From the IMG/VR virus record IMGVR_UViG_3300044625_000919, positions 1 through 24,468 of that record: DNA of 24,468 bases. One strand, 5' to 3'. A program made the position numbers and the translations under genes. This document shows, piece by piece, positions 10,918 to 17,845 of the stretch (the stretch's first letter is position 1; each line of letters starts with the position of its first letter). The notes beneath the pieces were generated by a model. The model searched no databases and was not told the DNA's origin. It worked only from the letters and a program-made list of their open reading frames with translations. The DNA comes from a virus.

Positions 10918-11069
10918 CTATTGAGAATCAGCAGGGCGCCGAGTTGATTCTCAATAAAAGCCAAATCAATGAGAACCCTTGCGGCGCAAGGGATTGCGGG
11001 TCCTCCCTGAGGCAAGGGGGACAAGGATCTTTCGCGCCTCGATCTTTTCCTAGCGGGACTATTGAGAAT
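10918..11069. repeat. TATTGAGAAT inverted and direct repeats
   Basis: TATTGAGAATCA (10919-10930) and TGATTCTCAATA (10945-10956) are perfect 12-bp inverted arms around a 14-base spacer, starting 5 bases after the gpZ-like stop. CTATTGAGAAT recurs exactly at 11059-11069 in direct orientation. Between the two sets lies a perfect hairpin, CCCTTGC-GGC-GCAAGGG (10976-10992), and a second stem, GTCCTCC/GGGGGAC, near 11010-11030. The tract has no gene. It could be a packaging or operator region, or a small mobile-element remnant. Confidence 0.6.
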
Positions 11070-11134
11070 TGGTTACACTCGGTGCCCTGCCCGTTACAGG
11101 GTCCGCCGAATTTTGAGAGCAAACCGCCGAGAAT

Positions 11135-11156
11135 CCGCTTGAAAGCGTGGTTTTTT
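11135..11156 (+). terminator. putative intrinsic terminator before the ParB-like gene
   Basis: CCGCT-TGAA-AGCG(T)GG (11135-11150) makes a short GC-rich stem with one bulge, followed by six Ts (11151-11156). It lies just upstream of the palindrome at 11160 and the AT-rich cassette. That would insulate the cassette from transcription arriving from the gpZ-like gene. Confidence 0.55.
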
Positions 11157-11159
11157 GCC

Positions 11160-11176
11160 CTGTAACCTGGTTACAG
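11160..11176. promoter_or_regulatory. perfect 17-bp palindrome, likely operator
   Basis: CTGTAACC-T-GGTTACAG is a perfect inverted repeat with a one-base centre, 15 bases upstream of the ParB-like ATG at 11192. Related GTTACA half-sites lie at 11071-11077 and 11093-11099, and the right-hand CCCTGTAAC (11158-11166) also pairs with GTTACAGGG (11093-11101). The half-site shares the GTAAC core with the candidate origin. It is probably a protein-binding site; the binder is unknown. Confidence 0.55.
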
Positions 11177-11191
11177 CAGCCACCCCACCCT

Positions 11192-11821
11192 ATGCCCCGA
11201 AAGGCCCCGCCGCCGGTGATGCCGGACAAGCTGGAGCGCTGGCCGATCGATCGGCTGGTGCCCTACGAGAAAAATGCCCGGACCCATAGCGCTGAGCAGG
11301 TAGCGCAGATCGCCGCCTCAATCCAGGAGTTCGGCTTCACCAACCCGATACTGGTGGCCAGCGATGATGGCATCCTGGCGGGCCATGGCCGACTAGCCGC
11401 GGCGAAGGATCTGGGCCTGTCCGAGGTGCCCGTGGTGGTGCTTGACCACCTGACCCCGACCCAGCGCCGGGCCTATGTCCTGGCGGATAACAAGCTGGCG
11501 CTGAATGCGGGGTGGGATGAGGAGCTACTTAAATCTGAATTGCTTGACCTTGGCGAGCTCGATTTTGATTTGACCTTGCTGGGATGGGGGAACGATCTGC
11601 CAGAGTTTGCTTCTGCACCGGACTATTCTATTTTGGATGACGAAGACGTCGCTGACCAGCTAGACGAGATGGCGGCTGGCGTAAAAAAAGCGATACAGAT
11701 TGAGTTTGAGCCTGAGCACTACGAAGAAGCCCAAGAGCTGGTGAAATTCTGGCGGACCAAGGGCGGCTACATTGGGCTTATGTTGATTGAAAAACTTGCC
11801 TCGGAGAAATCAAAACTATGA
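11192..11821 (+). CDS. ParB/Srx-like domain protein
   Basis: A 209-residue protein from ATG 11192; earlier in-frame starts lie within the terminator/palindrome region. Residues about 14-105 match a ParB-like N-terminal domain: DRLVPYEKNARTHS, IAASIQEFGFTNPILV, then ILAGHGRLAAAKDLG with the GHGR nucleotide-binding motif (64-67). The segment QRRAYVLADNKLALNAGWDE is typical of the phage ParB proteins that are often fused to DNA methyltransferases. Here no methyltransferase domain follows; the chain ends in a helical tail (residues about 165-209). It overlaps the next gene by ATGA and heads a putative modification cassette. GC content falls towards its 3' end, as in the two genes behind it. Confidence 0.85.
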   Translation: MPRKAPPPVMPDKLERWPIDRLVPYEKNARTHSAEQVAQIAASIQEFGFTNPILVASDDGILAGHGRLAAAKDLGLSEVPVVVLDHLTPTQRRAYVLADNKLALNAGWDEELLKSELLDLGELDFDLTLLGWGNDLPEFASAPDYSILDDEDVADQLDEMAAGVKKAIQIEFEPEHYEEAQELVKFWRTKGGYIGLMLIEKLASEKSKL

Positions 11822-12513
11822 AACTTGAACAAAGCGAGATCAACGGAATCAAGTTTTGGCATCGTCCTGGATTCAGTGATATCAAAACCTTTCGGGAAGT
11901 GATCGGCCGCGACGTTTATCAGCAGCGTGGAATGCGCATATTGCCGGGGGATCGCTGGATGGACTGCGGCGGCAATGTGGGGGCTTTCGCTTTGCTTGCC
12001 TGTAGTTTGAAAGCAGATGTTGTGACATACGAGCCAGACCCTTATAACTGCGAGATAATCGAAAAAAATCTGAGGCTCAATGGATTTCGCGCAAACGTAA
12101 AACAGAGAGCACTAGTACATGATGATCGAGACGAGGTTGTTTTATTCATAGGCAATAACAACAATGTATGGCGCAATAGCATTGTAAAAAAGTGGAACAA
12201 CCTAGGCATCAAGGTACCGTGTTTGAATTTTGACCAAGAGGCTCAATCTTTTGATTGCTGCAAGATGGATATAGAAGGGGCTGAAATGCTTATTCTCGAA
12301 AACACTCAAAAGATCTTTCGCAAATTGGTTTATGAATGGAGTTTTGACATTGATAACAGCCTGCCAAGATTCTGGAGTTTAATTGAAAAGCAACAAAAGC
12401 AGTACAACGATTTTAAAAGTGTTGGCAATGTAGGCAGATTTGCAACAAGAGACTACGTGACTTGGCAACAGTCATGGTTTCCAGCCTGCGCAAACGTATT
12501 TGCTTTTAACTAA
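11818..12513 (+). CDS. FkbM-family SAM-dependent methyltransferase
   Basis: A 231-residue protein beginning in an ATGA overlap with the ParB-like gene. SAM-binding motif I is WMDCGGNVGAFALLA (DCGGNVGA at 49-56). An acidic end of strand beta-2 follows in VVTYEPDPYNC (E72), with the helix NLRLNG after it. The FkbM signature is KMDIEGAE (149-156). FkbM enzymes generally O-methylate sugars or small molecules, so the substrate here is open: a sugar on a modified base, a glycan, or a capsid group. The GC content is far below the flanking phage genes, which suggests recent acquisition. It shares one base with the next ATG (TAATG). Confidence 0.85.
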   Translation: MKLEQSEINGIKFWHRPGFSDIKTFREVIGRDVYQQRGMRILPGDRWMDCGGNVGAFALLACSLKADVVTYEPDPYNCEIIEKNLRLNGFRANVKQRALVHDDRDEVVLFIGNNNNVWRNSIVKKWNNLGIKVPCLNFDQEAQSFDCCKMDIEGAEMLILENTQKIFRKLVYEWSFDIDNSLPRFWSLIEKQQKQYNDFKSVGNVGRFATRDYVTWQQSWFPACANVFAFN

Positions 12514-13277
12514 TGAAACGCATTGACCTTGTTCAATCCGCACACAATCGCAAAATTGGCGAAGAATGTGAATATATCGAGCCAAACATCACAGAAGATT
12601 GCATTTTTTATTCAAACGGCGAGCCTATTGGGTTTTATGTTAGCAAGATGCCTGCAAAAATGTGCAAGCTGGCTGATCTCGCAAATACAGAATTTAAGAG
12701 TGACAATGTTCCCAAAACAAAAATGGATAGGAGTGATGTGCTAAAAGCGCAAATAGACAATCCAGGAATGACAAGATCTGAGGCGAGAGAAATAGGAACC
12801 TGTCAAATGTCCACAATTATAGGCTCAGTCCCGCCGAAGCCTCAATTTATGAGGCATTATCCCACTCGGTCAAGTGTCCACACTGTCAAATCCGCCCAAA
12901 CATTTATCAAGGCGATGTTAATGCTCGCAAAAGAAAGCGAAACGCTAATTGCTCAAATTATGCCCGAACAACACGCTAGGCAGCTAAATATATTCAAGGA
13001 TGTGCCAAGCAAGTGGAAGTTTGGAAATCTTTTTACGTCTTCTATTAGCAATTTCAATATCAGCGCGCCATTCCACAGGGACACCGGAAACATGAAGGAC
13101 ACTGTAAATGTAATTATTTGCAAAAAGCTAAATGCAAAAGGCGGAGACTTGCATATACCGGACTATGGTGCAACTATAGGACAGCAGGACAACTCCGTTC
13201 TTGTTTATCCAGCGTGGAGAAACATGCACGGAGTTACGCCCATAAATCCAGTGCACCCAGGGGGGGTACAGGAATAG
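12513..13277 (+). CDS. TET/JBP-like 2OG-Fe(II) dioxygenase, C-terminus shifted out of frame
   Basis: As it reads, 254 residues. The C-terminal half has a double-stranded beta-helix dioxygenase pattern: ISAPFHRDTGN with the iron-binding H188 and D190, GGDLHIPDYGA, and distal His H239 in NMHGVTPI. The N-terminal part (EYIEPNITED, GEPIGFYVSKMP) fits a phage dioxygenase family related to TET/JBP base oxidases. The frame ends at HPGGVQE after a run of seven Gs. One base skipped there restores PGGYRNSLVFYPLNAFRDHP and a TGA at 13318-13320, giving 268 residues. The restored segment carries an Arg in the place where this superfamily binds 2-oxoglutarate. GC content is about 38% by hand count of two lines. 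Oxidation of a DNA base is the likely but unproven role. Confidence 0.75.
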   Translation: MKRIDLVQSAHNRKIGEECEYIEPNITEDCIFYSNGEPIGFYVSKMPAKMCKLADLANTEFKSDNVPKTKMDRSDVLKAQIDNPGMTRSEAREIGTCQMSTIIGSVPPKPQFMRHYPTRSSVHTVKSAQTFIKAMLMLAKESETLIAQIMPEQHARQLNIFKDVPSKWKFGNLFTSSISNFNISAPFHRDTGNMKDTVNVIICKKLNAKGGDLHIPDYGATIGQQDNSVLVYPAWRNMHGVTPINPVHPGGVQE

Positions 13278-13320
13278 CTTGGTTTTTTATCCGCTCAACG
13301 CTTTTCGTGATCACCCATGA
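13260..13320 (+). other. G7 frameshift site and out-of-frame C-terminus of the dioxygenase
   Basis: The run g13260-g13266 carries seven Gs. In the main frame it reads GGG GGG GTA and reaches TAG at 13275. Skipping one G gives GGG GGG TAC and continues for 17 residues to TGA at 13318, which overlaps the terminase small-subunit ATG (13317) as ATGA, the junction style used elsewhere in this genome. Confidence 0.75.
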
Positions 13321-13841
13321 ACCTCGAAGGCTACGCCGCCCACCGAAAGGCGCGGGGCCTTCGTGGCACCAGTCACGTGGCGGTGCTCAAGGCGATCGAC
13401 ACTGGCCGCCTCACCGAGCCCGCCGTGCGCAAGGTAAACGGCCGCTGGCAGATTGACGCCCCGCTGGCCGATGCGCAGTGGGCCGGCAACACCAACAACA
13501 TGCCCGACAGCGGCACCGAGCTGCCGGAACCGCCTAACACCCGCCAGCCGCACCCGGAGGGCGGCGGGCCATCGCTGGCTCAGGCCAAGCGCGCAAAGGC
13601 CGTCTACGAGGCGGAGCTGACCAGGCTAGAGCTGCAGCGGGAAAAGAAGGAGCTGATCTCCGCCGACGACGTGCGCCAAGAGGCCGCACGCATAGCCCGT
13701 CAGGTCCGCGATCTGCTGCTGAACATCCCAACCCGAAATGCGGCGAAGGTGGCAACGATGCAGGACCAGGAGGAAGTCCGCGCCCTATTGCAGAGCGAGA
13801 TCGAGATAGCGTTGCGAGGGTTGGCGAATGAAGCAGCCTGA
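13317..13841 (+). CDS. terS: terminase small subunit (Nu1-like)
   Basis: A 174-residue protein from ATG 13317. The N-terminal part (residues 1-50) resembles a winged-helix DNA-binding module: NLEGYAAHRKARG, then TSHVAVLKAIDTGRLTEPAV and RWQID. After a Pro/Asn-rich linker, a long helix begins with SLAQAKRAKAVYEAELTRLE and continues through LQREKKELI, which is the hallmark of Nu1-type small terminase subunits. This is followed by ARQVRDLLLNIPTRNAAKVA. It recognises the packaging site and loads the large subunit. It overlaps TerL by 14 bases. In lambda-like phages the cos site lies just upstream of this gene. Here that space is filled by the AT-rich cassette, so cos may sit in 10914-11191. Confidence 0.88.
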   Translation: MNLEGYAAHRKARGLRGTSHVAVLKAIDTGRLTEPAVRKVNGRWQIDAPLADAQWAGNTNNMPDSGTELPEPPNTRQPHPEGGGPSLAQAKRAKAVYEAELTRLELQREKKELISADDVRQEAARIARQVRDLLLNIPTRNAAKVATMQDQEEVRALLQSEIEIALRGLANEAA

Positions 13842-15705
13842 CGCTGCCACGGTCTACCGCAATGCGTTCATCGCAGCGCTCCAGCCCCCGCTGGATCTGA
13901 CCGTCAGCGAGTGGGCGGATCAGAACCGGATACTCACCCGCCGCAGCAGCTCTGAGCCGGGCCTATGGCGCACCGATCGCGTGCCGTTCCTTAAGGAGCC
14001 AATGGATCTGCTCAGCCCTCGTGAGCGTCGCATCAGGCGGGTGGTGCTGATCTTCGGCAGCCAGTCCGGCGCAAAGACCGAGTGCGGGCTGAACTGGCTG
14101 GGCCGCACCATCGCAAACGACCCGGCCCCCTTCCTAGTGATGTTCCCCACTGAGAGCTTTGCCAAGCGGCAGATCCGCCAGCGCCTGTCGCCGCTATTCA
14201 ATGACACCCCGGCGGTGGCGGCGAAGTCGCTCAGCAGCAAGAGCAGGGACTCTGCCAATGCGATGTTCCTCAAGGAGTTCGAAGGGGACATGCTGCTGTC
14301 GATCATCGGCGGCAACAGCGGCAGCGCAGCGCAGGGTATGCCGGCGCAGAACCTATGGGTGGATGAGGCCTCGTCACTGCCGCTGGAAATTGACGACAAG
14401 GGCGACCCGATTGAAAACGCCGAGGCCCGGCAAACCAACTTTCCCGATCGAAAGACGCTGCTGACCAGCACCCCTGGCAGCCGCGGCGCGTGCCGAATTA
14501 CCTGGGAGTTTGAAACCCGCTCAGACCGTCGCCGCTACGGGATGCTGATGCCCTGCTGCGGCGGCCATGCCGTGATCGAGTGGCCGCACATGGTATGGGA
14601 TAAGCGCGACGGCGAGGTGTGGTGCCAATGCCCGCTATGCAATGAACGGGTGGCGCAGCACCACAAGACTGCCATGCTCGCCGGCGGGATCTGGACGCCA
14701 ACGGCAAAGGGTGACGGCGAGACGGCGGGCTTCCATCTGCCTGGGTGGTATGCGCCGTATGGCTGGCTGAGCTGGGAGAAGATCCGCGATGAGTTCCTGC
14801 GCGCCAAGGCGGACCCGCTGCTGCTGAAGGGCTGGGTGAACAAGCGGGCCGCTGAGGCCTGGGAGGATGAGAGCCTGGCCAAGGTCTCAGCCGATGGCCT
14901 GATGGCCAGAGTCGGCGGCTACGGCCACGGCACCTGTCCCGAGGGCGTACTGGCGGTGCTGATGGCGGTGGACGTGCAGGACACCTGGCTGGAGGTGTCG
15001 GTGTGGGGCTACGGCCGCGGCAAGCCTGAGCAGGCCTGGCGGATCTGGCACCAGAAGATCGAGGGCGACCCGGGGCAGGATCACGTCTGGGATCAGGTGA
15101 CGACGATCCGCGAGATCGAATGGCCGCACGCAAACGGCGGCAAGCTGAAAGCGATCCACTGCGCGGTTGACACCGGCGGCCACTACACCAGCGAGGGGTA
15201 TGACTACTGCCGCCGGTACGCCAAAGATGGTGTGGTGGCCATCAAGGGCAGCAGCCAAAAGAACGCGCCGCCGCTCGGCAAAGGCTCAAAGCAGGACGTG
15301 ACCTTCAGGGGCAAGACCGTGAAGGGTGGCGTCACGCTTTACATGATCGGCACGCATGCCATCAAGCGGACCATCTACAGCCGCCTTAAGATTGAAGAGC
15401 CCGGCGACGGCTACATCAACTTCGACGACGCCACCACGGAAGACTACCTGCAGGGCTTGACCTGTGAGCGGCTGCAGCCGCGCTACGTCAAAGGGTTCCA
15501 GGTGCTGGAGTGGGTGAAACCCAGCGGCGCCCGCAACGAGCCGCTTGACCTGAAGGTGTACTGCCTGGCGATGCTGGAGCTGCTCAAGCGCCGCTACAAC
15601 CGTCAAACCATGTGGGACCAGCTGGCGGCACAGCTGGCGGCCTCCGTAGCCTTAGACCAGCAGGCCGCGCCACGAAAGGCCCGGAGTTTCACGGTGCTCA
15701 AATGA
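13828..15705 (+). CDS. terL: terminase large subunit, lambda gpA family
   Basis: A 625-residue protein, close to the size of lambda gpA. Its opening (LTVSEWADQNRILTRRSS, then EPGLWRTDRVPFLKEPMD) is typical of GpA-family packaging ATPases. The Walker A-like motif is FGSQSGAKTE (76-85) and Walker B is NLWVDEASSLP with the catalytic Asp-Glu at 179-180. A cysteine-rich zinc-binding part includes C243, C244, C266, C268 and C271. The nuclease domain starts at MAVDVQDTWLEVSVW (D382) and includes CAVDTGGHYTSEGY. It cuts concatemers and pumps DNA into proheads. It overlaps the gpW-like gene as ATGA. Confidence 0.95.
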   Translation: MKQPDAATVYRNAFIAALQPPLDLTVSEWADQNRILTRRSSSEPGLWRTDRVPFLKEPMDLLSPRERRIRRVVLIFGSQSGAKTECGLNWLGRTIANDPAPFLVMFPTESFAKRQIRQRLSPLFNDTPAVAAKSLSSKSRDSANAMFLKEFEGDMLLSIIGGNSGSAAQGMPAQNLWVDEASSLPLEIDDKGDPIENAEARQTNFPDRKTLLTSTPGSRGACRITWEFETRSDRRRYGMLMPCCGGHAVIEWPHMVWDKRDGEVWCQCPLCNERVAQHHKTAMLAGGIWTPTAKGDGETAGFHLPGWYAPYGWLSWEKIRDEFLRAKADPLLLKGWVNKRAAEAWEDESLAKVSADGLMARVGGYGHGTCPEGVLAVLMAVDVQDTWLEVSVWGYGRGKPEQAWRIWHQKIEGDPGQDHVWDQVTTIREIEWPHANGGKLKAIHCAVDTGGHYTSEGYDYCRRYAKDGVVAIKGSSQKNAPPLGKGSKQDVTFRGKTVKGGVTLYMIGTHAIKRTIYSRLKIEEPGDGYINFDDATTEDYLQGLTCERLQPRYVKGFQVLEWVKPSGARNEPLDLKVYCLAMLELLKRRYNRQTMWDQLAAQLAASVALDQQAAPRKARSFTVLK

Positions 15706-16268
15706 CTCAACCGCTGGAGCTCTACCAAGGCGATCTAACCAGCTGGATCGAATCCCGCGTCCATCCTGATGCCACGGCCGTTCGCGTGTGGTTCCGCGCT
15801 GCAGCAGCTGGCGCCGGTATCGAGGCGGTGGCCAGCGACACGGACGACGGCTGGAAGGTGGAGCTGAGCGCCGCCACGACGGCCACGATGGCGGCCGGCA
15901 GCTGGGAACTGCAGATCGTCTCCACGGTCAGCGGCGCCCCACTCACCACCGGCCGCGGCAGCTTGACCGTCCGCAAGAGCCTGGCATTCAGCGGCACCCC
16001 CGGCGCCTTCGATGATCGCAGCCAAGCGCAGAAAGATTTGGAGGCGGCTGAAGAGGCCATCCGCGCCCTGACCACGGGTGCGCAGGAGTACCAAATCGGC
16101 AGCCTCGGCAACGGTGGCCGGAAGGTGGTCCGCGCCGACCTGGCGGAGCTGATCAAGTGGCGCGACCGCCTCAAGGCTGAAGTCGCCCGCGAGCAACGCG
16201 CCGAGATGATTGCGCAAGGCCTCGGCGATCCGCGCCGGCTCTATGTGCGCTTCACGGGGGTGAGCTGA
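15702..16268 (+). CDS. gpW-like head-tail joining protein with N-terminal beta domain
   Basis: A 188-residue protein from ATG 15702, overlapping the TerL stop as ATGA. Residues about 110-188 match gpW: a helix QKDLEAAEEAIRALTTGAQE, a beta hairpin with RKVVRADLAELIKWRDRLKAE, and an Arg-rich end RRLYVRFTG, as in lambda gpW's C-terminus. The first 95 residues are different: a probable beta sandwich (LYQGDLTSWIESRVHPDATA to RGSLTVRKSLAF) like domains attached to phage structural proteins. Lambda gpW is only 68 residues. Position between TerL and portal is exactly that of gpW. It would fill the connector under the portal; the extra domain may face outside. Confidence 0.75.
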   Translation: MTQPLELYQGDLTSWIESRVHPDATAVRVWFRAAAAGAGIEAVASDTDDGWKVELSAATTATMAAGSWELQIVSTVSGAPLTTGRGSLTVRKSLAFSGTPGAFDDRSQAQKDLEAAEEAIRALTTGAQEYQIGSLGNGGRKVVRADLAELIKWRDRLKAEVAREQRAEMIAQGLGDPRRLYVRFTGVS

Positions 16269-17845
16269 TGGGTGTCCGTTCCTGGCTGCAGCGGCAGATC
16301 CTGACCACCCGGCACGGCCGGCAGCAGGGCCAGCGGATGTTTGAGGGCGCCCGGCGTAACCGGCTGCTCCATGACCTGGTGGCGCCGACCACCTCCGCAG
16401 ACGCCGAGCTGCGCGTCAGCCTGGCCGTACTGCGCGACCGCTGCCACCAGCTGGTCAGGGACAACCCCTACGCCCGCCAGGCCAAGCGGACTACGCAGAT
16501 CAACGTGGTGGGGCCGCGTGGAATCCAGATGCAGGGGCAGGTGATGCGCCCCAACGGCACCGAGAAGGACGTGCGCCGCAACCAGCTGCAGGAGGAAGCA
16601 TGGCGCCGCTGGTGCCGGCCAGATACTTGCGACGTGGCGGGGCGGCTGAGTTTCCACGGCTTCGAGATGATGGCCGCCGGCAGCCTGCCGGAGTCGGGCG
16701 AATGCCTGATCAGGATCGTGCGGCAGCCGATGGGACAGGGCCGCACACCGCTGGCGCTGGAGCTGATTGAGGCGCACCAGCTCGATGAGGACAAGAGCGG
16801 GGTATCAGATCGCGCTGGCCACGAATGGCGGCTAGGCGTCGAGATCAACCAATGGGGCCGCCCCACCCGGTACGCCATCCTGACCCGCCACCCTGGTGAC
16901 GTGGAGCTGGGCCTGAACCGCCGTGGCGTGGAGCGGAAGCACCTCCTGGTTCCGGCGGCGGACATGATCCATGTGTTCATGCCGGAGCGGATCGGGCAGA
17001 GCCGGGGCGTGCCGTGGTTGGCGTCGGTGATCACAACTGTCCACGGGCTTTCTGAATACGAAAAGGCTCACCTGGTACGGAAGCGCGTCCAGGCGGCATC
17101 GCTGGGGTGGATTCAGACGCCCGATGCCGGGCTGACCGGTGATGCGGTGGAGAACGGTCAGCGGCTATTCAACACTGAGCCGGGCGCCTACAACATCCTT
17201 GAGCCCGGCGAGGTTCCGGTGCCGCCAAACTTCGGGCCGGATGATGGCCAATACGATGCAGTCGTAAAAAACCTCACCAGGCGGTTTGCGGCTGGGTATG
17301 GATGCAGCTACGCCACGATCAGCAGGGACTTTTCGGACGCGAATTACAGCAGCATGCGCACAAGCGTCCAAGAGGATCGCGATCATTGGCGCGTGCTGCA
17401 GAGCATGCTGATACAGCAGCTGCATCAACGAGTCTTTGAAGAATGGCTCCGCGCTGCAATGTTGGCTGGCGAATTACCTTCGCCAGCTTTTAACGATTAC
17501 TGGACTAAGCCAGAAAGATATAATGCCCCCATGTGGCAGGCCAGGAGCTGGGACGGCATAGATCCATTAAAAGACATGGTTGCCATGGAAAAAGCCAGGG
17601 CGCTGTTACTCGAGTCCCATTCGCAGCAGATAGCCAGCTACACAGGGTCCGAGTTCGGGCAAGTGATGGCACAAATCGCCCGCGAAAACGAGCTGAAAGA
17701 ATCCCTGGGCCTGATGCCCACCGTGGAGCAGCCGCCTGAGCCAGCGTCGGAACCACCCATCCCTGAGCCTGAGGCGAAAGACCCCGACGACGACGAAGAG
17801 GACGCCGAGGATGAGGAAGCTCAGCCCCGGCCATCCGTAGCCTGA
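16268..17845 (+). CDS. portal protein, lambda gpB family
   Basis: A 525-residue protein, near gpB's usual length, starting in a TGATG overlap with the gpW-like gene. Family landmarks are the opening with LRVSLAVLRDRCHQLVRDNP, then YARQAKRTTQINVVGPRG. The middle contains WRRWCRPDTCDVAGRLSFHG, LALELIEAHQLDED, and HVFMPERIGQSRGVPWLASV. The stem/crown part has FAAGYGCSYATISRDFSDAN and YSSMRTSVQEDRDHWR. The C-terminus is Pro-rich and then strongly acidic (DPDDDEEDAEDEE). The portal dodecamer sits at one vertex of the head and is the channel through which the terminase packs DNA. Confidence 0.93.
   Translation: MGVRSWLQRQILTTRHGRQQGQRMFEGARRNRLLHDLVAPTTSADAELRVSLAVLRDRCHQLVRDNPYARQAKRTTQINVVGPRGIQMQGQVMRPNGTEKDVRRNQLQEEAWRRWCRPDTCDVAGRLSFHGFEMMAAGSLPESGECLIRIVRQPMGQGRTPLALELIEAHQLDEDKSGVSDRAGHEWRLGVEINQWGRPTRYAILTRHPGDVELGLNRRGVERKHLLVPAADMIHVFMPERIGQSRGVPWLASVITTVHGLSEYEKAHLVRKRVQAASLGWIQTPDAGLTGDAVENGQRLFNTEPGAYNILEPGEVPVPPNFGPDDGQYDAVVKNLTRRFAAGYGCSYATISRDFSDANYSSMRTSVQEDRDHWRVLQSMLIQQLHQRVFEEWLRAAMLAGELPSPAFNDYWTKPERYNAPMWQARSWDGIDPLKDMVAMEKARALLLESHSQQIASYTGSEFGQVMAQIARENELKESLGLMPTVEQPPEPASEPPIPEPEAKDPDDDEEDAEDEEAQPRPSVA

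Follow-up and report, generated by a model that had tools for sequence, protein, structure and literature searches.

A one-base gain in a G tract as a probable natural null allele of a TET/JBP-family dioxygenase gene in a phage DNA-hypermodification cassette

In the window analysed here (24,468 nucleotides, positions 1 to 24,468 of IMG/VR virus record IMGVR_UViG_3300044625_000919), a dioxygenase gene on the plus strand stops shortly after a run of seven G (13260-13266, +), and the bases beyond the stop still read like the end of the same enzyme. Is the short form the normal protein, or has a single base thrown the gene out of frame, and by what cause? The open reading frame (12513-13277, +) encodes 254 aa and ends with HPGGVQE before TAG 13275-13277. 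In the frame displaced by one base, YRNSLVFYPLNAFRDHP is encoded at 13267-13317 and closed by TGA 13318-13320, which overlaps the downstream ATG (13317-13319) as ATGA. Re-reading of the sequence found the coordinates of the run and of the TAG, as given in an earlier sequence-only reading, to be exact. Taken alone, the G7 run is unremarkable. An unusual homopolymer density in the window was considered and rejected, as G/C runs of at least seven are rarer than expected (two observed, about seven expected under a first-order model). Judged by alignment, the displaced frame matches an invariant or near-invariant block of TET/JBP relatives far more closely than chance would allow. Promoter and terminator scans gave results near chance level.

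Profile and alignment evidence places the gene in the TET/JBP family of 2-oxoglutarate dioxygenases, as a broken member rather than a working one. Enzymes of this family oxidize 5-methylpyrimidines in DNA, an activity that is putative for the intact form of the phage gene. The window product matched Tet_JBP (PF12851, 4.5e-10) with 39.4 bits and the protein of a near-identical contig, L003, with 45.0 bits, both above the curated cut-off of 34.9 bits; the match reaches profile position 161 of 164 for the L003 protein and 147 for the window product. The Fe(II) ligands, HxD and the distal His (H188, D190, and H239), are invariant in alignment A2 and are kept in the window allele. The L003 protein has the Arg of the 2-oxoglutarate site (R253) and the last strand of the core (252-259), whereas the 254-aa product lacks both; the alignments (44-45 proteins) show no variation at Y252, R253, N254, S255, or Y259. 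PHROG 6059 and RefSeq name this TET-like family, including the protein of Prochlorococcus phage MED4-184 (17129-17914), "queuine tRNA-ribosyltransferase", a label that is contradicted by Pfam and by the fold search.

A PDB search with a single sequence gave no match; a profile of 45 relatives found human TET2, and a fold search also gave matches. In the profile alignment, HGVTPI...GYRNSLVFY of the phage enzyme is placed on HATTPL...TRISLVFY of TET2, Arg on Arg. TET2 has R1896 at the base of its 2-oxoglutarate pocket and, next to this Arg, S1898 (PMC9749932). The R-x-S spacing of the aligned segment fits this numbering, and R253 is predicted to hold 2-oxoglutarate, in agreement with the earlier proposal that the restored ending includes an Arg at this site. 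An AlphaFold model of the intact 268-aa L003 form, made from an alignment in which one row from an outside record was omitted, has a mean pLDDT of 94.1 and a strand at 252-259. Its best PDB matches in the fold search were TET2 (E 1.6e-12, TMq 0.66), CcTet, and NgTET1.

The sequence-only reading had suggested that the shorter frame is not the ancestral one and that skipping one G gives an ending typical of the family, and the relatives support both points. They comprise 80 from IMG/VR, Prochlorococcus phage MED4-184, and loci from bacterial genomes, of which 83 were compared at the tract site. GYRNS lies in the gene's own frame in 82 of the 83; the sole exception, L002, carries the same G7 as the window and is also the only compared relative that ends at GGVQE. 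The refutation named in the sequence-only reading, relatives with this ending, therefore fails, for L002 shares the G7 allele itself. The number of consecutive G at the site is 2-3 in 79 of the 83 relatives, five in L016, six in L003 and L068, and seven in L002, and a long G tract was not found as a conserved feature of the site. These counts bear on a programmed shift at G7, whether +1 ribosomal frameshifting or transcriptional slippage, by which the window allele would yield the full enzyme. Such a mechanism would suit a downstream frame that is intact up to the ATGA overlap, but the recency of the G7 accounts for this, and nearly all relatives, L003 among them, are in frame with no shift and show no conserved shift site. 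Because they need no slippage, programmed frameshifting is not a trait of the family, and we consider it very improbable for the window, although low-level leakage across the tract may occur. A different lesion was seen in L013, whose TET gene (337-1134) has an in-frame TAA (937-939) and Arg in place of the catalytic distal His. Its sequence marks it as a second, independent broken TET gene; the window is therefore not the only phage sequence in which this gene has been lost.

The contig L003, from another virus, aligns to window positions 11038-15882 with two differences over 4,845 bases. One is an A in place of G at 12726 (D72N), which affects a residue that varies freely in the family (K, D, R, N, and others). 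The other is a tract shorter by one G, with which L003 encodes an intact enzyme of 268 aa, as expected from the claim that a one-base change restores the full enzyme. Since so close a contig has G6 and an intact enzyme, the sequences identify G6 as the ancestral state and G7 as a recent frameshift. The displaced reading at 13267-13320, YRNSLVFYPLNAFRDHP with its TGA, is then an out-of-frame remnant of the conserved C terminus, and the TAG at 13275-13277 a premature stop reached owing to G7.

A sequencing or assembly error, with G6 and an intact enzyme in the real genome, would also explain this pair. Errors are common in G runs, L003 has G6, and no further decay is visible in the window TET gene. 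The contig L002 speaks against it: it matches window positions 12181-16341 without a difference (4,161 bp, G7 included), and over 16342-17171, inside the portal gene, it differs at 59 of 830 positions (about 93% identity); 38 of the affected codons are synonymous and 11 non-synonymous, and the frame stays open without a stop. Because these portal differences are numerous and mostly synonymous and leave the frame open, L002, barring a chimeric assembly, reads as a different, mosaic genotype that also carries G7. Two contigs that share 4.1 identical kb seldom come out of one assembly, and the two G7 contigs are therefore probably independent of each other. Furthermore, the overlap between the window and L003 contains seven homopolymers of at least six bases, among which the G tract alone differs. 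An isolated error behind G7 is unlikely because the tract recurs in L002, and we give the error explanation as a whole only a small chance. Along the alignment with L002, identity drops from 100% to about 93% at a sharp mosaic boundary inside the portal gene. Two pattern scans found no further contigs with the tract context, leaving three in total, the window included. A literature search under two metagenome numbers returned no source papers.

G6 and G7 are thus both present in near-identical contigs at the level of contig comparison, and with no other decay in the gene, G7 must be very recent, reversible, or an error. If reversible, the tract would slip between G6 (on) and G7 (off) and switch DNA hypermodification in the phage population. 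The two lengths in nearly identical genomes, the off allele without further decay, and the presence of G7 in two genotypes are what such phase variation would produce, yet the tract is short for a contingency locus, the 2-3 G of most relatives give no sign of selection for a long tract, and there is no sign of reversal. We regard this explanation as quite unlikely, somewhat more so than an error. Were it true, the coexistence of modified and unmodified virions in one phage population might serve as bet-hedging against both restriction enzymes and nucleases that depend on modification, a reading that we likewise hold to be improbable.

The evidence therefore favours a true natural mutation among the four causes that the sequence-only reading had listed; programmed +1 frameshifting did not hold as a family mechanism, an isolated sequencing error became unlikely, and phase variation was left unproven with a short, unconserved tract. 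We consider it likely that the window carries a null allele, real but ordinary: one G was gained in G6, the C terminus was lost, and the protein is predicted to have no activity. Before that gain, two consecutive Gly codons close to the C terminus would have read GGG GGG, a slippage-prone sequence in replication, and slippage there is the simplest account of the G gained in the lineage of the window. The resulting G7 would move the frame, so that translation would stop three codons past the tract. The enzyme would lose its last 17 residues, including the predicted 2-oxoglutarate Arg and the strand that completes the catalytic core, and with them presumably its activity. The phage DNA would then be expected to lack the oxidized base and anything built on it.

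The mutation also alters the junction with the next gene, encoding the terminase small subunit (13317-13841, +; PHROG 57, 4.2e-21). The ATG of this gene overlaps the ancestral TET stop, as had been noted from the sequence, and the same overlap of TET stop and terminase start is present in the relative L068. With G7, the TET stop sits about 40 bases before the terminase ATG and the ATGA stop-start overlap is lost, which could weaken translational coupling to the terminase.

The gene belongs to a cassette that begins with a ParB-like gene (11147-11821, +; Pfam ParB_N, 2.8e-07), followed by an FkbM-type methyltransferase gene (11818-12513, +; Pfam Methyltransf_21, 3e-11) that overlaps the TET start. 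Among 81 loci, relatives of the former lie near TET in 71 and relatives of the latter adjoin it in 33, both counts being lower bounds because many contigs are cut. The combination of a ParB-like gene, an FkbM methyltransferase, and TET is a known kind of phage DNA-hypermodification cassette, located here just upstream of the genes for the terminase small subunit and then TerL. Literature searches for phage TET cassettes, FkbM included, returned nothing on the ParB-like/FkbM/TET arrangement. The window terminase and portal genes resemble those of Synechococcus phages S-CBS1 and S-CBS3.

The slot that separates the ParB-like gene from TET is swappable (window 11147-13320; L004, L008, L033, L044, L049, L053, and L045-L047). 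It is occupied by the FkbM methyltransferase, a TET-associated glycosyltransferase (PF20691), an amino acid:DNA transferase (PF18724; accompanied by a kinase-like protein in L049), unknown proteins (L026, 1261-2106; L062, 2502-3602), or nothing. Because the same position holds a glycosyltransferase or an amino acid:DNA transferase elsewhere, the middle gene is predicted probably to decorate the base hydroxylated by TET. The FkbM protein may methylate that base, and this version of the cassette suggests an O-methylated hydroxymethyl base. A low-G+C stretch spans 11550-13300, immediately upstream of the terminase genes. The G+C content is about 43% in the FkbM and TET genes and about 65% in the flanking genes, a contrast consistent with acquisition of these two genes as a unit.

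The mutation itself is ordinary. The window and L003 form a natural pair of near-identical phage genomes that, over 4.8 kb, contrast a putatively working with a putatively broken TET gene and otherwise differ by a single substitution, at a variable position, and this pair could reveal the role of the oxidized base for the phage in nature. The annotated 254-aa protein is unsuited to enzyme work because its near-identical intact counterpart has 268 aa.

Compared with known systems, the locus is closest to the phage TET/JBP-like dioxygenases (PF12851; PHROG 6059), with which it shares the domain, the adjoining ParB-like gene and base-decorating enzyme, and, in the G6 allele, an intact HxD...H...R layout; the TET-like protein of Prochlorococcus phage MED4-184 is 45.5% identical. 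The window allele differs from these enzymes in being truncated before the Arg. The solved structures of TET2, CcTet, and NgTET1 are the best fold matches of the intact form, and the C-terminal H...R-SLVFY segment aligns, but identity is only 11-14% and the substrate of the phage enzyme is putative. The frameshift resembles homopolymer alleles at bacterial contingency loci, where genes are switched off by single-base changes in runs of G, whereas the window tract is shorter, lies in a phage gene, and gives no evidence of reversible switching.
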